Source: Promethearchaeota archaeon (lineage in GTDB: Archaea; Asgardarchaeota; Lokiarchaeia; Sigynarchaeales; SOKP01). From it: 17,348 nt of DNA. The DNA lies in the NCBI GenBank assembly GCA_019058515.1, contig JAHPYY010000208.1:1-17348 (forward strand), given 5' to 3'. A model generated the notes under the pieces. It made no database searches, was not told the origin of the DNA, and saw only the letters and a list, made by a program, of their open reading frames with translations. Numbering within the stretch: the stretch's first letter is position 1; each line of letters begins with the position of its first letter. The position numbers and the translations under genes are program-made. Shown piece after piece: positions 2,069-15,022 of this stretch.

Positions 2069-3121
2069 TTGGTACTTAAAACAAATATAACCAAAATGCT
2101 TGGAATCAAGCACCCGATTGTTGCTGCCCCAATGGGACCTTTTTATACAACTGATCTTACAATTGCTGTAAGTGAAGCAGGGGGATTAGGTGTGTTGAGC
2201 CATTCTGCTCTAATTAGCGATTATGTGGCAAAAAAAGATCCCGTCGATATAATGAAAGAAAATATGCTTAAAGTTATTGAACACACTGATAAACCTTTTG
2301 GATTTAATGTAAGGACTTCTCGACGAGAAATTGATGCACCTAGATTTGTAACCAAAATACCCGAATTCATTATGAATAATCCAAAATTAAGGGAACAGTG
2401 TGTATATGCAATAACTAGCGCGGGATCATCCAAAACATTACAAGCATCAAAATCCTTTCAGGAATTGAGGAAAAGTGGTTCTAACATTAAACATTTTCAT
2501 GTAGCTCCTGCATTATGGTTAGCTGATAAATGTGTTGCTGCTGGTGTTGATGGTTTAGTAGTCACCGGCGGGGAAGGTGGAGGTCATCAATCTTATGAAA
2601 AGGTTAGTACTTTAGTCCTTTTACAGCAAGTAGCCCAAAAGTATCCTGAAATGCCTGTCGTAGCCTGTGGAGGTTTTGCAACCGGGGAAGGTCTTGCTGC
2701 CGCATTAACTTTAGGAGCAGGAGCTATTGCTATGGGTTCACGATTTATAGCTTCAAATGAAAGCGAGTTTCACTCGACCTATAAAGGAATAGTGCCAACT
2801 GCCACAGCTAAAGACACAATTTTAGTAACTGGAGCGTTAGGACCAATAAGATTATGGAAAAATGAGTATTCTCTACATCATGGCTTGGTTGCTGATAAAG
2901 AAGAAAAAATGGCTGAGGAAGCCGCTTTTACAGCGGAGGATATTATTGCAGAAGGTAAAGCCTATGAAGCTGCTTACAAAGGTGATATTAAATCCGGTGC
3001 GGTTCTGCTTGGACAAAGCATTGGAATTATCAAAAGCTTAGAAAAAGTCAAGGATATTGTAGACCAAATCGTTGGCGATGCTGAAAAACGATTAACGGGA
3101 GCCTACAGCTATATCAATTAA
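2069..3121 (+). CDS. Nitronate monooxygenase / FabK-family FMN TIM-barrel oxidoreductase
   Basis: A 350-residue FMN protein of the 2-nitropropane dioxygenase/enoyl-ACP reductase II family. Diagnostic segments run in order: 'LGIKHPIVAAPMGPF' (11-25), 'AVSEAGGLGVLSH' (33-45), 'KPFGFNVRTS' (75-84), 'AAGVDGLVVTGGEGGGHQ' (157-174, with the family histidine at 173), 'MPVVACGGFATGEGLAAAL' (195-213) and 'GAGAIAMGSRFIAS' (216-229). The family oxidises nitronates or reduces enoyl thioesters; sequence alone does not decide which. The TTG start is supported because the family N-terminus (x-T-x-I-T-x-x-L-G-I-K-x-P-I) begins just after it and because AAGTGA lies 8 bases upstream. An ATG at 2096 would cut off the first strand. 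It is monocistronic, and a T-rich terminator follows. Confidence 0.85.
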   Translation: MVLKTNITKMLGIKHPIVAAPMGPFYTTDLTIAVSEAGGLGVLSHSALISDYVAKKDPVDIMKENMLKVIEHTDKPFGFNVRTSRREIDAPRFVTKIPEFIMNNPKLREQCVYAITSAGSSKTLQASKSFQELRKSGSNIKHFHVAPALWLADKCVAAGVDGLVVTGGEGGGHQSYEKVSTLVLLQQVAQKYPEMPVVACGGFATGEGLAAALTLGAGAIAMGSRFIASNESEFHSTYKGIVPTATAKDTILVTGALGPIRLWKNEYSLHHGLVADKEEKMAEEAAFTAEDIIAEGKAYEAAYKGDIKSGAVLLGQSIGIIKSLEKVKDIVDQIVGDAEKRLTGAYSYIN

Positions 3122-3467: not shown

Positions 3468-3869
3468 ATGCATAAAGATGAAGTGGATTTATTTCTAAAG
3501 AGATCAAATAATTTTTTAGAAGCAGCACACGAAAGATTTCAGAAAAAAGATTGGGATTTAACATGTTTCTTCTCTGAACAAGCTATACAATTATATTTAA
3601 AAGCAGCTTTACTAGAATTAAGTGGAGAATTTCCAAGATCTCATTCTATAAGACAACTAATTGCTACTCTTTCACAATTTTCAGTAAATAAAATAGAATC
3701 CGATAGAAAATCCTTAAGATTCATAGAAGATGCCTATTTCAATGCAAGATATTTAGATTATATTTATGAAAAAGACGATGCTTCAGATGCATTACAAATT
3801 GTTGGAAAGTTGAAAAAATACGTTGACCAGGTTAGAAAAGATTTTAGAAATAGGAAAGCAGAGGAGTAA
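3468..3869 (+). CDS. HEPN domain protein (toxin partner of HEPN-MNT pair)
   Basis: A 133-residue all-helical HEPN protein. It shows the typical run 'FLKRSNNFLEAAHERFQKKD' (9-28), 'SEQAIQLYLKAALLELSG' (36-53), 'SHSIRQLIATL' (58-68) and 'IEDAYFNARYLDYIYEKDD' (86-104). HEPN toxins are usually RNases with an R-x(4-6)-H motif; here R94 is followed by YLDYIYEKDD with no histidine in range, so it may not be a canonical RNase, or it may act through the 'RYLDYIY' tyrosines. In HepT/MntA-type pairs the MNT partner modifies HEPN tyrosines. The gene starts at an ATG preceded by an AT-rich TATA-like stretch (about 3427-3444) and no SD, so the mRNA is probably leaderless or nearly so. Its 3' end overlaps the MNT gene by 47 bases. 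Confidence 0.85.
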   Translation: MHKDEVDLFLKRSNNFLEAAHERFQKKDWDLTCFFSEQAIQLYLKAALLELSGEFPRSHSIRQLIATLSQFSVNKIESDRKSLRFIEDAYFNARYLDYIYEKDDASDALQIVGKLKKYVDQVRKDFRNRKAEE

Positions 3870-4176
3870 AATTCTATTTAATTACGAGAAGTATTTACAG
3901 AAAATTCTTGCTGCAATAAAAGATACTCTCAAAAAGCCAAGCGTCTACTTAGTTGGTAGTGTTTTGGAAGACAATTTGGTTGCTTTAAGTGATATAGATA
4001 TAATTGTTGAATGTGAAATACCTAAAAATCACATGAGAAGGGCTGAAATCGTAGCTAATATCGAGGAGAAATCAAACCTTCCCTTATACCATCCTTTTCA
4101 ATTTCACCTTTTATCCAATGAAGAATTATACAAATGGAAAGCAATCTATAAAATAAATCCAAAAAAAATATTATAA
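3823..4176 (+). CDS. MNT minimal nucleotidyltransferase (antitoxin partner of HEPN)
   Basis: A 117-residue minimal nucleotidyltransferase. The catalytic signature is complete at its core: 'VYLVGSVLEDNLVALSDIDI' (41-60) gives G45-S46, ten residues, then D57-x-D59. The third acidic position, usually on the next strand, is not obvious: 'HPFQFHLLSNEELYKW' (90-105) has Gln-Phe-His there. The protein is expected to silence the HEPN toxin by adding nucleotides to it. The start is uncertain. TTG at 3823 lies inside the HEPN gene, and there is no ATG or GTG between it and the catalytic motif; the only later ATG (4034) falls after the motif. The overlap suggests coupled translation. A hairpin and T-run follow the stop. 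Confidence 0.8.
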   Translation: MTRLEKILEIGKQRSKILFNYEKYLQKILAAIKDTLKKPSVYLVGSVLEDNLVALSDIDIIVECEIPKNHMRRAEIVANIEEKSNLPLYHPFQFHLLSNEELYKWKAIYKINPKKIL

Positions 4177-4384: not shown

Positions 4385-6850
4385 ATGGAAAAAACCAAAA
4401 ATTGGAGACTTTCAATCCCAAGGATTTATTCACCTCAACCTTTAAAAACTTCTAAATTCAAACTGGTTGAAAAATCTGATTATGTTCATTTTGGGCACTT
4501 AGGATTTGGAGAATATTTTACTCCCGAGAAATATTGGACGTCACAAATTATCTCGCAGATTCTATATCAAGCGGAAACAGGAAAAATTCCAGTTTCGGGT
4601 GCTGGATATGGGGGATCTTTTGCTGGTGAAGGATTTGATGGGATATGGTTTGATATGTCTGAAATCGTGCGTCCAACAAGGGATGGAATCCACGGAAGGG
4701 AATATATTTCAACTAGAATTGAATTAGGTCGAAGAGCGTTAAAATTAGATTTTGGAACGAATAAAAATTTAACGACTAATGTTCCCCTATTAATAGGTCT
4801 TCCATTTCCAATAATTTTTAACCCTCTACCAGTAAGATCTAAAAAAGATAACAAAATTTTGTCAATTGTAAAAGCCGCATTTTCGCTAGGAACGATTGCT
4901 ATTATTCCACAATCAGATGTTTCAAATGATTACCTCCCATTCGCTAAATGTATATCGTTACGATTGAATCATAAACCAAACAATGTTGAAACCGCATTAA
5001 TTCAAAATGCAAAAATGGTTGAAATTGAAGATCTGACATTATTAAAAACTATAAAAAAAATATCTCCCAATATTTTGAGTTCATTTTTGCTTCCAATAGA
5101 AGAAGACATCGAAAACAAGGTACTCTCTTTAATTGGAAAAGGGATAGACATTATACACTTAAATTTCGATTTTAGTGGAGAAAGTAAATTAGGAAATGTC
5201 CCGACAGTTATCAAAAAGATTCACGATTTTTTAATTGACAACAATTGTCGTAACTCTGTGAGTATAATAGCAAGTGGAGGAATAGCTGCTGCGGAACATG
5301 TGGCAAAAGCGATGATCTGTGGAGCCGATTGCGTAGCAATAGATTACGTATTGTTAATTGGCCTTGGGTGTTCATTATGGGCGGATTTATCTTTTCCGTG
5401 TAGGGCAGAATATGGAGAATTAGACCCAGATTGGAGTATCAATAGAATTAAAAATTTAATCGCTGCTTGGAGGGATCAACTTCTTGAAATCCTTGGTGCT
5501 ATGGGAATTAGAGAAATTAGAAGGATCAGAGGAGAAGTTGGTAGAGCGATTTTTTACGAAAAGGAAAGAAAAGAATTTAGCTCTCTTTTTAAAATTGCTG
5601 GGGTTAATTCAAAATTAGGTTATCTATCTCCACGCGAACAATTAAGCGTTGGAGATTGTAGATGGCCGTTTGAATTGATTCAAGCAACATTTGAGCAAGC
5701 ACGTACTGGATTGCTTCCAGAACATCTTGGATATCGAATAGGCAGAAGTGCGGGAGGATTTGATCGCTTATCATTCGTATTTGAAGAAAATGGAACGGAA
5801 CTTTTGGATAATCCCTCTATAGATTTATCAATTCCCTTAAATTTGCGACCGAAAGGACCCAAAATAAATATCTCAATGCCTGTGTACTCTGGAGGTATGT
5901 CGTTTGGTTCGGTCTCTCTTAATGTTATGCTTGCTAGAGCAATGGCAGCCAAGGAAATTGGTTCTTTTATGTCGACTGGTGAAGGTGGTTATCCTCAAGA
6001 TTTAATTCCATATAGGAACCATGTTATCACGCAAGTGGCGACAGGGTTATTTGGTGTAAGTGAAGATACAATCCAAAGATCTCCTATAGTGGAATTCAAA
6101 TATGCTCAGGGTGCAAAACCAGGATTAGGAGGCCACTTGCTTGCTGGGAAAGTTACCGAAGCAGTAGCACACGCTAGGGAATCTGTGGCAGGTATTAGCT
6201 TATTTTCACCTTTTCCGTTTCATAGTGTATATTCAGTAGAAGACCATAAGAAGCATATTGATTGGATTAGGCAAATAAATCCAAACGCTCTTGTAATCGT
6301 TAAAGTTTCAACGCCTACGGATGTAGACATGGTTGCGGTCGGTAGTTATTATGCCGGAGCAAATGTTGTGAATATTGATGGTTCTTATGGTGGAACTGGT
6401 GCTGCTCCTGAAGTAAGTAAGAAGAATATAGCTATGCCTGTGGAATATGCGATACCAAAAGTGCATGACTTTCTCGTAAAGGAAGGCATAAGAGATGAGA
6501 TTATTCTAATCGCTTCCGGGGGAATTCGTACAGGATATGATATCGCTAAATCAATTGCTTTAGGTGCTGATGGAGCAATGGTTGGTACGGCAGATCTAGT
6601 AGCATTAGGATGCGAAAGACTCGGTGTTTGTGAAAAGGGGGATGGTTGTCCAGCAGGAATTACAACGACAGATCCTAAATATGCATGCCTAATAGATCCC
6701 CAGTGGGGAAAAGAACGCATAATTAATCTTAGAAGAGCGTGGGCTATTCAATTACGTCAAATTTTAGACGCTCTAGGAATGAAAAGTATTAGAGAATTGA
6801 GGGGTAGAACTGATACATTACTATACTTAGATAAAGAGGGACTGGGATGA
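4385..6850 (+). CDS. Glutamate synthase-like FMN subunit with two tandem barrels, the first degenerate
   Basis: A two-barrel protein of 821 residues. The second barrel (about 420-815) is a standard glutamate synthase FMN domain (COG0069): 'SGGMSFGS' (502-509), 'STGEGGYP' (530-537), 'AQGAKPGLGGHL' (574-585), 'SPFPFHSVYSVED' (608-620), 'DGSYGGTGAAP' (665-675), 'IASGGIRTG' (709-717), and C743, C749, C755 for a 3Fe-4S cluster. Spacing is C-x5-C-x5-C against C-x5-C-x4-C in classical GltB. The first barrel (about 36-395) aligns with it along its length: 'HDFL' 280 and 694, 'ASGGI' 296 and 710, 'AWRDQLLEIL' and 'AWAIQLRQIL'. It lacks the FMN, substrate and GGTGA motifs and keeps two cysteines. The role would be to make glutamate from 2-oxoglutarate with ammonia from the next gene's product. 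It is first in a four-gene operon and its TGA overlaps the next ATG. No SD is visible before the ATG. Confidence 0.85.
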   Translation: MEKTKNWRLSIPRIYSPQPLKTSKFKLVEKSDYVHFGHLGFGEYFTPEKYWTSQIISQILYQAETGKIPVSGAGYGGSFAGEGFDGIWFDMSEIVRPTRDGIHGREYISTRIELGRRALKLDFGTNKNLTTNVPLLIGLPFPIIFNPLPVRSKKDNKILSIVKAAFSLGTIAIIPQSDVSNDYLPFAKCISLRLNHKPNNVETALIQNAKMVEIEDLTLLKTIKKISPNILSSFLLPIEEDIENKVLSLIGKGIDIIHLNFDFSGESKLGNVPTVIKKIHDFLIDNNCRNSVSIIASGGIAAAEHVAKAMICGADCVAIDYVLLIGLGCSLWADLSFPCRAEYGELDPDWSINRIKNLIAAWRDQLLEILGAMGIREIRRIRGEVGRAIFYEKERKEFSSLFKIAGVNSKLGYLSPREQLSVGDCRWPFELIQATFEQARTGLLPEHLGYRIGRSAGGFDRLSFVFEENGTELLDNPSIDLSIPLNLRPKGPKINISMPVYSGGMSFGSVSLNVMLARAMAAKEIGSFMSTGEGGYPQDLIPYRNHVITQVATGLFGVSEDTIQRSPIVEFKYAQGAKPGLGGHLLAGKVTEAVAHARESVAGISLFSPFPFHSVYSVEDHKKHIDWIRQINPNALVIVKVSTPTDVDMVAVGSYYAGANVVNIDGSYGGTGAAPEVSKKNIAMPVEYAIPKVHDFLVKEGIRDEIILIASGGIRTGYDIAKSIALGADGAMVGTADLVALGCERLGVCEKGDGCPAGITTTDPKYACLIDPQWGKERIINLRRAWAIQLRQILDALGMKSIRELRGRTDTLLYLDKEGLG

Positions 6851-9282
6851 AAGTAATGAAAAAAGAAGTTGAAGGTGGTTGTGGAGTAGTAGGGTTCTGT
6901 TCAACTGAAAAAATTGCAGGTAAGCATTTGCTACCGCCATGTATTCAAATGCATAATAGGGGAAACGGAAAAGGAGGCGGTATTATTGCTATGGGATTAG
7001 AAGCGTCCCAATTGAATGTTTCTGAAGAAGTTTTGGAAACGCAATATTTAGTACAGATTGCTTATCTTAAACCTGAAATACGAAAGAGTGTTGAAGCTCA
7101 ATTTATATTTAACAATTTTAACATTCATTCTTGCTATAAAATTAAATGTAAAAATCCTAATTCTTACAATCTTGACATAGAACCACCCAAAGTATATAGA
7201 TATTTCTGTCGCGTTAAACCCCCTATTTTAAAGGAGTTTATGAAAAATAATAGAATTAAAGATATTAAAAAAGCCGAAGACGAATTTGTGTTTTTGAATA
7301 GTTTCAATATTAATAAAAAATTCTATGCGGAGAATGTTTCTCAAGATGCTTTTGTTTTATGCCATGGAAAAAATATGGTTGTATTTAAAATTGTAGGATA
7401 CGCTGAAGAAGCTATTGAATATTATAATTTGATGGATTTAAAAGCTCATATTTGGGTTGGACATCAGAGGTATCCCACTAGAGGGAGAGTTTGGCATCCT
7501 GGAGGTGCTCATCCATTTATTGGGTTGAAGGAAGCATTAGTACATAACGGAGATTTCGCAAATTATCATTCAATTTGTGAATATCTTATTCAAAACGGAA
7601 GAGAACCATTGTTTTCTACGGATACTGAAATTGCAGTATTGTTATTTGATTTGTGGACAAGAACTTTTGAGTATCCTTTAGAATATACTATTGAAGCTTT
7701 AGCTCCCACAACAGAACGAGATTTTATTATGCTTCCCTATAAGAAACAAGAAATATACAAGCTTATTCAAAGTTATCACATACAAAATTCTCCTGATGGT
7801 CCTTGGTTTTTTATAATTGCTAGAAACGATGATACTGAAAATCAGATCCAACTATTGGGAATTACAGATACTTCTATGTTAAGACCTCAAGTATTTGCTC
7901 TTCAAGAGAATGAAGAGGTTAAAATAGGCTTAATCGCTTCTGAAAAACAAGCTATTGATTCTATTTTGTTAAGTATTGCGGAAGAAGATAAAAGATTCTG
8001 TGCAATTGCAGATTTATATTGGAATGCTCGTGGTGGTAGTTATACAGATGGAGGAGCTTTTATATTTTCCTTGAAAAATCATCATTTGTCTTGTACTGAT
8101 AAGTTTGGAAATGAAATCAAGATTCCAAAAGGAACTTCTTTAAAAGCAAACGAATCCCAAAATTATCAATTTAAAACTAATTATTCTTTAGTTTGTCAGG
8201 AAATTCCTGATATGAGGTACGAAGAAATATTAGGATTTTTAGAATCAGCAGAAGTTTATGCTAAAAAGGGAGATTCACAATATCAAGAAACAGTTAAATT
8301 AATTACAAATTTAATTGATAGATTTTATCCAATTGGCAATAAAAAAAGAAGTAATTTACTAGAATTGTTTCATCAAACATTGTATTCAATATTTCGAAGT
8401 ATATCTTCTAAATTAGAATCTTCTAAATACTTAAATTTCCAGTCATCAAAAATACCTATCCCCAATTCTAACGATCAGTGTCTATTAATTGATGGTAAAG
8501 ATTATCCTTCAGAGGGATCTAAATCTCTGGCTTCAGTAATGGTCGAGGTTTTTAAGTACGGATGGAAAAAAATGCTTATTTTTGATCTTAGAGGTCAAAG
8601 ATTCTGTACTTGTGGTTTTGGACTCCATTCATCTCCACTCACAATTGAAATGTATGGATCTGCCGGTGATTATCTAGGTTCTGGAATTGATAATATGGAA
8701 GTAATTATCCATTCGAATGGTCAAGATCAATGGGGCCAGATAATGAAATCAGGAAAATTAGTGATATACGGAGATGTTGGGCAAGCGTTTCTTTACGGTG
8801 CTAAAGGAGGAGTTTGTTATGTAAGAGGAAATACAGCAGGGAGAGCTTTAATAAATGCTGTTGGGAATCCTCGGGTTATTATTAATGGAAGCTGTTTGGA
8901 TTACTTGGCCGAATCTTTTATGGCTGGTGATGTGTTTCGTAGCGGAGGTTTCGTTATTTTAAATGGGGTAAGCTTTAACGACAATGGGATTTTAGAAGAA
9001 TATCCAGAACCTTACCCTGGAGGTAATTTATTTTCTCTTGCCTCTGGAGGAGCAATTTATATTCGCGATCCACTTAAAAAAACAGGAGAAGAACAACTGA
9101 ATGGAGGGCGCTTCGCAAATTTTTCAGAACGAGATTGGACCCTCATTAAACCTTATTTAGAAGAAAATGAGAGATTATTTGGGATTAAAATATATGACTT
9201 ATTGACTGTTCATAATCAAGTTCAATCTCCAAGTGAAGTATATCGAAAAATTGTCGTAGGACGTGCGGAGGCTTTAAAATGA
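6847..9282 (+). CDS. Class II glutamine amidotransferase fused to GltB GXGXG domain
   Basis: An 811-residue fusion of the outer two domains of glutamate synthase without the central FMN barrel. The N-terminal amidotransferase has a nucleophile Cys12 in 'GGCGVVGF', which implies removal of an 11-residue leader (8 if translation starts at the second Met). Glutamine-site motifs are 'GHQRYPTRG' (205-213), 'HNGDFANY' (233-240) and 'STDTEIAVLL' (257-266), and the closing part 'DTSMLRPQVFAL' (341-352) is also typical. The C-terminal GXGXG beta-helix runs from about 545 to 707: 'GQRFCTCGFG' (583-592), 'GSAGDYLGSGID' (604-615), 'GDVGQAFLYGAKGGVCYVRG' (642-661). It should hydrolyse glutamine and channel ammonia to the FMN subunit. 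Starts and stops are coupled on both sides by ATGA overlaps. An N-methylglutamate-synthase-like activity cannot be ruled out, since that enzyme uses the same three modules. Confidence 0.85.
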   Translation: MKVMKKEVEGGCGVVGFCSTEKIAGKHLLPPCIQMHNRGNGKGGGIIAMGLEASQLNVSEEVLETQYLVQIAYLKPEIRKSVEAQFIFNNFNIHSCYKIKCKNPNSYNLDIEPPKVYRYFCRVKPPILKEFMKNNRIKDIKKAEDEFVFLNSFNINKKFYAENVSQDAFVLCHGKNMVVFKIVGYAEEAIEYYNLMDLKAHIWVGHQRYPTRGRVWHPGGAHPFIGLKEALVHNGDFANYHSICEYLIQNGREPLFSTDTEIAVLLFDLWTRTFEYPLEYTIEALAPTTERDFIMLPYKKQEIYKLIQSYHIQNSPDGPWFFIIARNDDTENQIQLLGITDTSMLRPQVFALQENEEVKIGLIASEKQAIDSILLSIAEEDKRFCAIADLYWNARGGSYTDGGAFIFSLKNHHLSCTDKFGNEIKIPKGTSLKANESQNYQFKTNYSLVCQEIPDMRYEEILGFLESAEVYAKKGDSQYQETVKLITNLIDRFYPIGNKKRSNLLELFHQTLYSIFRSISSKLESSKYLNFQSSKIPIPNSNDQCLLIDGKDYPSEGSKSLASVMVEVFKYGWKKMLIFDLRGQRFCTCGFGLHSSPLTIEMYGSAGDYLGSGIDNMEVIIHSNGQDQWGQIMKSGKLVIYGDVGQAFLYGAKGGVCYVRGNTAGRALINAVGNPRVIINGSCLDYLAESFMAGDVFRSGGFVILNGVSFNDNGILEEYPEPYPGGNLFSLASGGAIYIRDPLKKTGEEQLNGGRFANFSERDWTLIKPYLEENERLFGIKIYDLLTVHNQVQSPSEVYRKIVVGRAEALK

Positions 9283-10073
9283 GAATAATTGTATGTTTAA
9301 AACAAGTTCCAGATGTTGAAGAAGTGAAAACAGATCCAGATAGTGGACGAATTGTTCGAGTAGGCATAGCAGGTACTATCAATCCCTTTGATATGTTTAT
9401 TCTGGAAGAAGCAATGTGTTTAAAAGAAAAATTCGGCGGAATCGTTTCATTATTAAGCATGGGTCCTCCAGATGCGATCCATACTCTACAATATGGATTA
9501 GCAGTTGGGGCAGATGAAGCTTACCTTCTTTCAGATAAAAAATTTGCTGGATCAGACACATTAGCTACGGCATACGCTCTTTCATGCGTAATTAAAAAAT
9601 TAAATTTATATGATTTAATACTCTGCGGAATTAAAACTACTGATGGAGATACAGGTCAAGTAGGAGCAAATTTAGCTGAGATTCTTGATATACCTAATGT
9701 GTATTATGTTAATAAGATAATTAAATTTCAAGATTCAAAAATCATATTAGAGAGATTATTGGAAGATCGAAGTCAATTTTTAGAAGTTTCTTTGCCTTGT
9801 TTAATTTCAGTTGTAAAAGGAGCTAACATCCCTCGAATGCCCACATTAAAAGGGAAAATTGAAGCGGAAAAAAAAAGAATAAAAATACTCAGTTCTTCCG
9901 AAGTTAAAATTGAAGAAGAATATTGCGGGTTAGAAGGTTCTCCGACTAGAGTAGTAGAAGTATTTCTCCCGAAAAAAAGGAAAAAAGGGATAGTCTTAAA
10001 AGGTTGTATAGATCAAAATATTGTCAAACTTGTTGAATTCTTAGAAAGTAAGAATTTGGTACCAAAAAAATGA
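9279..10073 (+). CDS. etfB: Electron transfer flavoprotein beta subunit (EtfB)
   Basis: A 264-residue EtfB. Family landmarks are 'MRIIVCLKQVPDVEEVKTDP' (1-20), 'TINPFDMFILEEAMCLKE' (33-50), 'LLSMGPPDAIHTLQYGLAVG' (58-77), 'LLSDKKFAGSDTLATAYAL' (83-101), 'DGDTGQVGANLAEIL' (122-136) and 'NIPRMPTLKGKIEAEK' near residue 190. The SMGPP and LSDxxFAGxDTLAT stretches resemble clostridial ETFs that do flavin-based electron bifurcation more than the mammalian or Paracoccus type; this is a judgement from recalled family patterns. The protein pairs with the next gene's EtfA to carry electrons between NADH/ferredoxin and a partner flavoenzyme. Its only close partner here is the glutamate synthase-like pair. 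ATGA overlaps tie it to both neighbours. Confidence 0.92.
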   Translation: MRIIVCLKQVPDVEEVKTDPDSGRIVRVGIAGTINPFDMFILEEAMCLKEKFGGIVSLLSMGPPDAIHTLQYGLAVGADEAYLLSDKKFAGSDTLATAYALSCVIKKLNLYDLILCGIKTTDGDTGQVGANLAEILDIPNVYYVNKIIKFQDSKIILERLLEDRSQFLEVSLPCLISVVKGANIPRMPTLKGKIEAEKKRIKILSSSEVKIEEEYCGLEGSPTRVVEVFLPKKRKKGIVLKGCIDQNIVKLVEFLESKNLVPKK

Positions 10074-11254
10074 TTTATATTGATAATACTAAGTGTATCG
10101 GATGTGGAGAATGTGTTAGAGCATGCGTATTTGGTTTTATTTCTCTTGAAAATAAAGTTCCCTTAATTTCAGAAGATTGTCGATTATGTGGAGCTTGCGC
10201 TAAAGCCTGTTTATATGATGCTATAGTAATAAAAAGAGAAAAAAAGAAAAAATTCGCTAATTGGAAAGGGGTTCTTATTTTCGGAGAGCAACGAGACGGA
10301 ATGATTTTAGATGTGGTGTATGAGTTATTAGGCAAAGGGAGAATGCTTGCTAATAGACTGAATGAACCTTTGCTTTGCGTTATTTTAGGAAAATCAGTAA
10401 AACAAGTTAACGAATTACTATTTTATGGAGCAGATGAGGTCCACTATTTTGAGAACGACCATCTCGAGCTATTTAATTGTGAAACTTATTCAAAAATTAT
10501 ATCGGATTTCATCAAAAATTTAAAACCAAGTATCTTTTTGATTGGTGCAACTTTAAGTGGAAGAGAATTAGGTCCAAGAATTGCAGCAAGAGTTAGAACG
10601 GGTTTAACAGCAGATTGCACCGGCTTAAAAATAACTGATGATGGATTGCTATTACAAACAAGACCAGCATTTGGAGGAAATATTATGGCATCAATCATTT
10701 GCCCTAATACTAGACCCCAAATGGCTACAATTCGTCCAAAAATTATGAGAAAACCTGTGAAAATTATACGAGAGGGTAAGTTAATTCATCATAAAGTAAA
10801 TCTAAAGTTCTTAGAGTCGCGAATTAAAATATTAGATGAAATAAAATTCGATAACCATCATAATATAGAAAATGCGGATGTCATAATTTCAGGAGGAATG
10901 GGTTTAGGCAAAAAAGAAGGATTTGAAACCCTAGAAGAATTAGCAAACGAGTTAAATGGAGTGGTTGCTGCGAGTAGACCCACAGTCGATGCGGGGTGGG
11001 CAGATTATTCTATTCAAGTTGGGATGTCAGGAAAAGTTGTACAACCAAAATTGTATATTGCTTGTGGCATTTCAGGAGCTGTACAACACCGAGTTGGAAT
11101 GGAAACATCCAATATTGTTGTTGCAATTAATAAAAATGAACAAGCTCCTATATTTGAGATTGCAGATTTTGGAATTGTGGCTGATTTATATGATGTTATT
11201 CCAGAATTGATCAAAAATCTTAAAAAGCAAGAAGGAGCTAAATGTTCAGATTAG
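10070..11254 (+). CDS. etfA: Electron transfer flavoprotein alpha subunit with N-terminal 2x[4Fe-4S] ferredoxin domain (EtfA)
   Basis: A 394-residue EtfA. The first 55 residues are a two-cluster ferredoxin: C9, C12, C15, C19 and C37, C40, C43, C47. The proline that commonly follows the last cysteine is absent from both motifs. The EtfA part carries 'TGLTADCTGL' (177-186), 'LQTRPAFGGNIMASIICP' (195-212), 'RPQMATIRP' (215-223) and the FAD-binding C-terminus 'SGGMGLGKKEGF' (274-285), 'ASRPTVDAGW' (301-310), 'QVGMSGKVVQP' (316-326), 'GISGAVQH' (333-340), 'VAINKNEQAPIFEIADFGIV' (351-370). Consensus QVGQTGK is QVGMSGK here. Ferredoxin-EtfA fusions are known from bifurcating complexes such as caffeyl-CoA reductase (CarE) and lactate dehydrogenase-Etf (LctC). 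It is last in the operon, overlapping etfB by ATGA. Confidence 0.93.
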   Translation: MIYIDNTKCIGCGECVRACVFGFISLENKVPLISEDCRLCGACAKACLYDAIVIKREKKKKFANWKGVLIFGEQRDGMILDVVYELLGKGRMLANRLNEPLLCVILGKSVKQVNELLFYGADEVHYFENDHLELFNCETYSKIISDFIKNLKPSIFLIGATLSGRELGPRIAARVRTGLTADCTGLKITDDGLLLQTRPAFGGNIMASIICPNTRPQMATIRPKIMRKPVKIIREGKLIHHKVNLKFLESRIKILDEIKFDNHHNIENADVIISGGMGLGKKEGFETLEELANELNGVVAASRPTVDAGWADYSIQVGMSGKVVQPKLYIACGISGAVQHRVGMETSNIVVAINKNEQAPIFEIADFGIVADLYDVIPELIKNLKKQEGAKCSD

Positions 11255-12262: not shown

Positions 12263-13606
12263 TTAGGTTTTTGTAATCCTCCCGTCCTGCTTTTCTAATT
12301 CTTTAGGGGAGTTTAGCTCTTTCGTTTTTACTTCAGCGATATTATCAAGATTTAAGATATTAGTAAACAATACGCCTATTGTTAATAAACCGATAATTAA
12401 CAACGCACAAAACAAGAAAAAGATATAAATACCTAATAGATCTGCGAAAAATCCAGATAAGATCATGCCTAATGGGGAAACGGAATTAGAAATTACAATA
12501 ATTAATGATATTACCCTTCCTTGTTTTCTCGGAGGTATTATGGTTTGAAGTAAGGTTATAAAAATAGAATTAATTATTGCTGTAACTGACCCTATGATTA
12601 AAACACCTATCCCAATTAGCCAAAATACTCCTATTGGAGGTAACAAAATAAATAGAACCCCTAAAAATTGGAAATAATATAACTGGATAATTCTTAATAC
12701 CACCTTGTTCCAATTTTTCTTTTTAATTACAATTATTGATCCCAATATTATACCTAATTGAAAGGAAGCCATTACAAGTGCGTAATCACTCGCAATTCCA
12801 GAATGAGTAACTTCAATATAATATGGCATAAGCACATAAAAGGGAGCAGAGAAAAAACTGGTTACTGCAAATATTAAGATTAATGAATTTAATCCAGAAA
12901 TTCCTTTTATCGTTGCGAATCCTTCCTTGAATTCCATTATAAATTTAGATTTCTTCTTTCTCTTCTTTTTTTTCCTTTGAATTGGTAATTTTAAGAAAAT
13001 TGATGGAACGAGTGCAATAGAATAGGTGATTATATCTATCCAAAGTATCTGCCCAATTGATAAATATACCATAAGTAAAGCAGCGATTAAGGGAGCTACA
13101 ATGTTAAGTAAGCCTGTGGCTAAAAAACTAATAGAATTAAGTTTAGAGAGATATTTCTGAGGAACCATAAAAGGAACTATAGTCATTAAAGTAGGTTGAT
13201 GGAACGCTTGACAAAGTCCTCTCAATACTATTAAGATTAATAATGCGATTAAATTCACAGATCCAATCGCAAATAGAATTATGATTCCTAAAGTAAAAAT
13301 TGCCTGGAGAAAATCGGATATTATTATTATTTTCTTCTTATTCCATCGATCTACAAACACACCTGCAAAGGGAACTAAAATCATAGAAGGAGCAAAACTT
13401 AGGAAATACGTAATTGACAAGACGCTAGGGCTTTCTGTTTCAATGGTAATCCACCAAATTATGGAGAACATGACTATTGAGGAACCAAAGAGTGAAATCA
13501 ACTGACCACCAAACAAAAAAAGAAAACTTCTAAATTTTTCTTTCTCACTTGGTATTTTAACTTGAATTTCTTTATCGTTTGATCTATCGGAATCGGATTC
13601 TTCCAT
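12263..13606 (-). CDS. MFS transporter (macrolide-efflux/EntS-like, MFS_3 type)
   Basis: A 447-residue membrane transporter with about 12 hydrophobic segments between residues 27 and 420 and charged, soluble ends. MFS motif A is present between helices 2 and 3: 'GVFVDRWNKKK' (82-92). 'LRGLCQAFHQPTLMTIVPFM' (128-147) and 'IPPRKQGRVISLI' in the second half are typical of the efflux branch with EntS and macrolide exporters. The central loop is very basic ('RKKKKRKKK', 211-219), consistent with a cytoplasmic position. It starts 24 bases after the beta-glucosidase stop on the same strand, so the two are likely co-transcribed. Its substrate is unknown: the family mostly exports drugs or siderophores, but the context could suggest sugars or glycosides. 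Confidence 0.85.
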   Translation of the reverse strand: MEESDSDRSNDKEIQVKIPSEKEKFRSFLFLFGGQLISLFGSSIVMFSIIWWITIETESPSVLSITYFLSFAPSMILVPFAGVFVDRWNKKKIIIISDFLQAIFTLGIIILFAIGSVNLIALLILIVLRGLCQAFHQPTLMTIVPFMVPQKYLSKLNSISFLATGLLNIVAPLIAALLMVYLSIGQILWIDIITYSIALVPSIFLKLPIQRKKKKRKKKSKFIMEFKEGFATIKGISGLNSLILIFAVTSFFSAPFYVLMPYYIEVTHSGIASDYALVMASFQLGIILGSIIVIKKKNWNKVVLRIIQLYYFQFLGVLFILLPPIGVFWLIGIGVLIIGSVTAIINSIFITLLQTIIPPRKQGRVISLIIVISNSVSPLGMILSGFFADLLGIYIFFLFCALLIIGLLTIGVLFTNILNLDNIAEVKTKELNSPKELEKQDGRITKT

Positions 13607-13630
13607 CGCTTTTATACTACCAAAGTAAAC

Positions 13631-15022
<1,392 letters not shown>

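Follow-up and report, generated by a model that had tools for sequence, protein, structure and literature searches.

An ETF-linked glutamate synthase operon in a Promethearchaeota archaeon, plausibly electron-bifurcating

Genes of the operon

Contig JAHPYY010000208.1 of the Promethearchaeota archaeon assembly GCA_019058515.1 (17,348 nucleotides, the whole of which is the window considered here) carries four genes that encode a glutamate synthase followed by an electron-transferring flavoprotein (ETF). A preliminary description, made from the letters of the window and its open reading frames (ORFs), had taken them for an ETF-linked glutamate synthase operon that might bifurcate electrons, and the present analysis follows up that reading. 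The genes are:

4385..6850, + strand: gene 1, glutamate synthase core, 821 amino acids (Pfam PF04898 Glu_syn_central and PF01645 Glu_synthase)
6847..9282, + strand: gene 2, amidotransferase and GXGXG, 811 amino acids (Pfam PF13522 GATase_6 and PF01493)
9279..10073, + strand: gene 3, EtfB of bifurcating sequence type, 264 amino acids (Pfam ETF)
10070..11254, + strand: gene 4, EtfA with an N-terminal two-cluster (4Fe-4S) ferredoxin domain, 394 amino acids (Pfam 4Fe-4S dicluster of the Fer4 families, ETF and ETF_alpha)

Genes 1–4 are joined by three overlaps, each an ATGA (at 6847, 9279 and 10070), and the ORF coordinates and overlap letters agree on this arrangement. The complete glutamate synthase domain set that had been claimed is borne out by Pfam, which finds all four GltB domain types over genes 1 and 2; all are present, divided between the two genes. 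Gene 1 consists of a central-domain barrel (about residues 1–420) and an FMN/3Fe-4S barrel (about 421–821) that are homologous to each other (28% identity over 199 residues), and in Foldseek the seven top matches of its AlphaFold2 model (a single chain, mean pLDDT 83) all belong to glutamate synthases, with E values from 8e-31 to 3e-27, the large subunits being best. Residues C743, C749 and C755 are invariant in an alignment of 60 sequences and, by alignment to 2vdc and 1ea0, would form the 3Fe-4S site, so that gene 1 shows the FMN barrel with a three-cysteine cluster site by which a glutamate synthase is recognized. Gene 2 holds an Ntn-type glutamine amidotransferase whose predicted nucleophile, Cys12, lies behind a short pro-segment, and in an alignment of 34 sequences every residue from E9 to V14, Cys12 included, is conserved in 90% or more of them. 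The same protein carries the GXGXG domain (PF01493) expected of a glutamate synthase, and its model (mean pLDDT 87) has glutamate synthase 7mfm as best Foldseek match, followed by GlmS/GFAT and PurF chains. On these alignments the catalytic residues of the synthase look intact.

The window has 22 listed ORFs, of which 13 were domain-scanned; the remaining nine overlap scanned ones and were left unscanned. In keeping with the preliminary description, no GltD-like protein, acyl-CoA dehydrogenase or lactate dehydrogenase was reported among the 13, save for weak cross-matches of the FMN barrel of gene 1, nor was an FrhB/FdhB-type subunit, the mark of an F420-dependent synthase, reported for them.

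Comparison with known glutamate synthases

The NADPH-dependent GltBD enzyme shares all four domain types (amidotransferase, central, FMN/3Fe-4S barrel and GXGXG) and differs in that here they are spread over two genes and ETF genes follow in place of GltD; the GltD in the operon that would define an NAD(P)H-dependent synthase is lacking among the scanned ORFs. The ferredoxin-dependent synthase likewise has no GltD and shares the same catalytic core, whereas the window operon brings its own ETF. Ferredoxin-dependent enzymes carry a ferredoxin-specific loop after a GEGG motif. Gene 1 scores 168 bits against the ferredoxin enzyme 1llw, with a best stretch that begins only at residue 545, versus 189–191 bits against NADPH enzymes with stretches from 499–502; the late start would fit a missing insertion.

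The nearest precedent for an exchanged electron-input subunit comes from methanogens and ANME archaea, whose putative F420-dependent glutamate synthases have, in the consulted passages of their descriptions (PMC3448663, PMC3087415, PMC9012536), an alternative subunit of this kind; the input there is an FrhB/FdhB-type F420H2 dehydrogenase, and in the window operon it would be the ETF. Since the operon has no GltD, the ETF would be the likeliest electron donor to the synthase.

Recurrence of the four-gene unit

A protein search with the synthase scored the 7998 candidates that share most words with it, of which 7494 passed. Relatives are encoded at 459 loci of GTDB contigs, and the reading of gene neighbourhoods covered the best 80 of these. 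The nearest relatives are Lokiarchaeota/Promethearchaeota records. The same four-gene order, for which the preliminary description had proposed a search, recurs in nine archaeal rows (window included) carrying Asgard, Micrarchaeota, Woesearchaeota, Undinarchaeota and Thermoplasmatota labels. In the Woesearchaeota-labelled genome (G830) the unit is split over two contigs, with the synthase on L027, while L198 carries EtfB and EtfA behind the end of gene 2. Seven of the 80 loci (L001–L005, L037, L041) have EtfB and EtfA after the synthase pair, a rate of 7 in the 54 that show 2.1 kb or more of sequence downstream of gene 2, and where both sides can be seen (39 loci) an ETF is present in five (L001, L004, L032, L037, L041). 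The last kind of arrangement includes one reversed case, the Anaerolineae locus L032, which has EtfB–EtfA directly upstream and an EtfA that overlaps the synthase gene by 4 bases. As far as visible, the synthase core is fused in the seven loci with a downstream ETF, in L032 and in G830. Because the gene order is shared by several differently labelled archaeal genomes, it is more than chance, and a chance neighbourhood is rejected by this recurrence together with the largely congruent trees described below.

At a threshold of E 1e-80 the synthase was found in 14 of 227 genomes of the phylum of the Asgard genome G001; in four of these the core is fused, and all four have the ETF. The phylum of the Thermoplasmatota-labelled genome has EtfA in 128 of 292 genomes, and in 30 loci read, with flanks of about 1.5 kb, a synthase stands only at that genome's own copy. 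The Anaerolineae class of L032 has an EtfA match in 174 of 396 genomes, and the nearest outside relative of the L032 copy (L262/L291, 64%) has an LctD-like gene about 1.2 kb after it. A wider bacterial ETF–synthase lineage was considered and rejected, as only L032's own copy adjoins a synthase among the 30 class loci read.

The Micrarchaeota-labelled genome G004 (1.2 Mb) shows no sign of a mis-binned contig: the GC content of the stretch that carries the unit is 0.460, against 0.455–0.462 in four other stretches, with which its tetranucleotide correlation is 0.57–0.69 (0.60–0.83 among those four). Of the 295 genomes sampled from its phylum only one was found to have EtfA, and the unit of G004 is therefore possibly a horizontal gain or an undetected binning error.

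Largely shared history of synthase and ETF

A tree of EtfB and EtfA together (25 rows) unites the nine archaeal synthase-linked ETFs in a single clade (96/95), and the synthase tree (34 rows) likewise groups the nine archaeal rows (98/96). The linked ETF clade neighbours a group of ETFs that sit beside LctD-like genes, and L032 lies elsewhere. When L032 is included, two label changes are needed in each tree, forced by well-supported branches, which is most simply read as two origins, the Anaerolineae arrangement being the second. The deeper well-supported branching matches between the trees, with the Thermoplasmatota-labelled row outermost, then the Undinarchaeota- and Micrarchaeota-labelled rows (whose order the ETF tree leaves open), the Woesearchaeota-labelled row and Lokiarchaeota. 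The four closest Lokiarchaeal rows differ, the synthase tree pairing L002 with L003 (96/90) and the ETF tree L001 with L003 (94/92). Since this deep order is at odds with the accepted relations of the phyla, the four-gene unit has probably spread between archaea as a whole.

Distances among the nine archaeal rows are correlated between synthase and EtfA (r 0.96) and between synthase and EtfB (r 0.90), shared species history being uncontrolled in both values, and the correlation of synthase with EtfA persists when only the six most distant archaeal rows are taken (r 0.76, p 0.007). A tree of EtfA only (52 rows) separates linked rows from acyl-CoA-dehydrogenase rows in 93% of bootstrap trees, with many unlabelled rows on the linked side and 4 of the 13 linked labels assigned indirectly.

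Partners of the other ETFs

A census of EtfA was made in the nine genomes selected because they carry the synthase–ETF pair. They hold 17 copies, nine of them beside the synthase. Within 3.3 kb of seven of the eight non-linked copies there is a match to acyl-CoA dehydrogenase; the remaining copy (G006:C11:723023) has a xylose-isomerase-like gene on either side. For the synthase-linked copies the corresponding count is 0 of 8 (eight genomes searched, G830 excluded), so that a place for the linked ETF in an acyl-CoA dehydrogenase operon was not found in any of the eight genomes searched. Four genomes (G002, G004, G007 and G830) have the synthase-linked EtfA as their sole copy, and one of them, G004, gave no match to acyl-CoA dehydrogenase, FAD-oxidase_C or Fer4_20.

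In the phylum of a Bathyarchaeota-labelled genome, five of the seven loci fetched at larger size have an LctD-like gene adjoining the ETF; of the other two, L234 ends soon after EtfA and L235 has part of EtfA. The five (L231, L232, L233, L236, L237) are Lct-like EtfB–EtfA–LctD clusters, which contrasts with the placement of the lactate dehydrogenase type in bacteria only, as given in the consulted passages of a 2018 survey (PMC6085437). For two contigs with a Fer4-EtfA, L199 and L200, one and two neighbours were scanned, and no known partner turned up among them.

The recurrent order, the largely congruent trees and the placement of other ETFs mostly beside their own dehydrogenases support by context the claim that this ETF belongs with the synthase. 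It might be argued that the synthase is instead ferredoxin-dependent, with an ETF that acts apart on acyl-CoA dehydrogenases or in ferredoxin supply and an operon that only co-regulates the two. Two observations lean that way, the many homologous synthases with no ETF neighbour and the acyl-CoA dehydrogenase matches of G002 and G007, and these count, with others, against the pairing as proposed. Most homologous synthases show no ETF neighbour: 47 of the 54 loci with a visible downstream side have none there, and 34 of the 39 visible on both sides have none on either, so that the synthase presumably can run on something else, and an ETF seems dispensable for the synthase family at large. Ten other Asgard synthase genomes (nine split-core and one cut by a contig end) have no ETF on the stretch read, the contigs of G061 and G170 ending inside gene 2, and the L032 arrangement is absent from the other 29 Anaerolineae-class EtfA loci read. 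Among the six most distant archaeal rows the Mantel control for synthase against EtfB is not significant (r 0.18, p 0.14). G002 and G007 have this ETF alone and 8 and 6 acyl-CoA dehydrogenase matches, respectively; the ETF may therefore serve those dehydrogenases too, which may weaken the exclusivity of the pairing in these two genomes. Eight of the nine pair-bearing genomes have a Fer4_20 match elsewhere (GltD-like, a domain also found in other enzymes), and all nine have a glutamate-dehydrogenase-family match, by which the synthase as sole route to glutamate is rejected. Nearly all genomes compared, moreover, are metagenome bins.

Against a separately acting ETF stand the acyl-CoA dehydrogenases beside 7 of 8 non-linked ETFs and 0 of 8 synthase-linked ones, the largely joint inheritance and probable second origin of the pair, and G004, which lacks a match to such dehydrogenases; we regard that alternative as quite unlikely and hold with good confidence that the ETF is the partner of the synthase. 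The preliminary description had named ETF genes sitting with other dehydrogenases, and not with the synthase, as a finding that would tell against it. This case applies by half: ETFs related to that of the unit but found elsewhere do adjoin other dehydrogenases, and most synthase homologs are without an adjacent ETF.

Type of the ETF

The nearest relatives of the ETF by sequence scores are CarDE and LctBC, as the preliminary description had suggested in relating it to bifurcating ETFs. In phmmer searches EtfB scores best with CarD (6fah_B, 204 bits), LctB (7qh2_B, 197), 4kpu (188), 5ol2 (179) and 7koe (158), all of which we take to come from ETFs known to bifurcate, and the other five chains score 58–88 bits. 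The best match of EtfA in the PDB is CarE (6fah_A, 401 bits over residues 5–386) with all eight cysteines aligned, which, with the Pfam match, bears out the two 4Fe-4S motifs that had been noted in it. CarCDE and LctBCD are thus the nearest solved relatives of EtfB, and CarCDE, through CarE, that of EtfA, ferredoxin domain included; their partner is a caffeyl-CoA reductase or a lactate dehydrogenase, whereas here the partner gene is a glutamate synthase.

The second nucleotide site of EtfB has the motif DGDTGQVG, of the DGDT type that we take to mark a bifurcating ETF, and each of the ten linked rows retains this motif, allowing for conservative changes; the nine archaeal rows also retain all eight cluster cysteines of EtfA. 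The operon's ETF accordingly has both bifurcating nearest relatives and a DGDT-type motif in EtfB, in an alignment with no AMP-type ETF as control. The motif also occurs in the aligned acyl-CoA-dehydrogenase-linked ETFs, and the domain scan found no ferredoxin domain in the EtfA of L032; both points count against bifurcation.

A synthase paired with an ETF that has no ferredoxin domain, as in L032, would fit a plain, non-bifurcating conduit, in which the ETF replaces GltD and passes electrons to the synthase from NADH, or from reduced ferredoxin by way of the 4Fe-4S domain, and the putative F420-dependent synthases are a precedent for such an exchange of input subunits. The motif in all ten linked rows, the cluster cysteines in the nine archaeal rows and the bifurcating complexes as nearest solved relatives argue against a plain conduit, which we consider unlikely. 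Bifurcation would be the likeliest mode in the archaeal units on these sequence features, and whether the ETF bifurcates in vivo we put at about even chances.

Variation across the synthase family

By the author's count, about 28 of the 80 loci have two half-length genes in place of a single core gene. Neighbours in the 80 loci were identified from a scan of one member of each protein cluster. A GlcD-like FAD protein with a 4Fe-4S domain lies directly upstream in nine (L039, L044, L045, L048, L055, L061, L071, L073, L076), in methanogen-labelled and bacterial genomes, and is a candidate second electron-input module; an FlpD (MvhD)-like protein lies directly upstream of a split synthase in three (L036, L063, L079). 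Given these neighbours, the family seems to accept different electron-input modules.

Other genes also adjoin the synthase. NadE (NAD synthetase) lies upstream in L006, L009, L020 and L042, with a 4-base overlap in all four, and downstream in L001 and L003 (the copy of L001 being domain-scanned). In five Chloroflexota loci (L011, L017, L019, L023, L025) genes for an Ada-type regulator and an EamA transporter stand between the two synthase genes.

Elsewhere in the window, a HEPN-domain gene (PF05168) overlaps a nucleotidyltransferase-domain gene (PF01909) just upstream of the operon (3468–4176), in the layout of a HEPN/MNT toxin–antitoxin pair. A nitronate monooxygenase/FabK-like FMN protein is encoded at 2069–3121, and on the minus strand at 12263–15010 an MFS transporter adjoins a GH1 beta-glucosidase.

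Proposed function

We think it rather probable that the operon encodes a glutamate synthase in which an ETF replaces GltD as electron input, probably with NADH as donor and ferredoxin co-reduced. NADH would reduce the FAD in EtfB; one electron would pass over the 4Fe-4S clusters of EtfA to ferredoxin, and EtfA's mobile FAD would carry the other to the 3Fe-4S/FMN site of the synthase, which after two rounds would reduce the iminoglutarate formed from 2-oxoglutarate and glutamine-derived ammonia. The net reaction would be 2 NADH + 2 ferredoxin(ox) + 2-oxoglutarate + glutamine -> 2 NAD+ + 2 ferredoxin(red) + 2 glutamate. With potentials of -320 mV for NADH, about -130 mV for 2-oxoglutarate/glutamate and -420 to -500 mV for ferredoxin, and with the energy of glutamine hydrolysis taken into account, the net reaction would be downhill by about 15–30 kJ/mol.

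A glutamine synthetase gene lies upstream of the synthase in L001 and L002, and Lrp-type regulators lie divergently upstream in L005, L037 and L041 (one member per cluster scanned); these neighbours point to ammonium assimilation as the role of the unit. The neighbouring ETF clade, found with LctD-like genes, might suggest the opposite direction, a confurcation in which glutamate oxidation together with reduced ferredoxin yields NADH, as in lactate oxidation by LctBCD. The conserved glutamine amidotransferase half, together with the glutamine synthetase and Lrp-type neighbours, suggests assimilation instead, and glutamate synthases are, as far as known, practically irreversible; working in reverse is thus improbable.

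Glutamate is a main entry of ammonium into biomass, and we know of no case in which energy is conserved in its reductive synthesis. No description of an ETF-linked glutamate synthase was found in the open-access literature, as judged by titles and the starts of abstracts, subscription papers being mostly outside this search. The 2018 survey counts twelve bifurcating enzymes, and those named in its consulted passages include no glutamate synthase (PMC6085437).

The unit is real and recurrent; the partnership of ETF and synthase is well supported by context, a physical contact between the two is inferred, and bifurcation is plausible on sequence grounds. Tentatively, and with slightly less than even confidence, the operon may represent an additional class of enzymes with flavin-based electron bifurcation, in which glutamate synthesis, driven by NADH, covers the cost of reducing ferredoxin, encoded by a cassette that spread between archaeal phyla and was assembled at least twice. 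Were the reductive step coupled to a bifurcating ETF, the cost of reduced ferredoxin would be borne by a biosynthetic reaction. The finding also opens to experiment the way in which some Asgard and small-genome archaea power their assimilation of ammonium.

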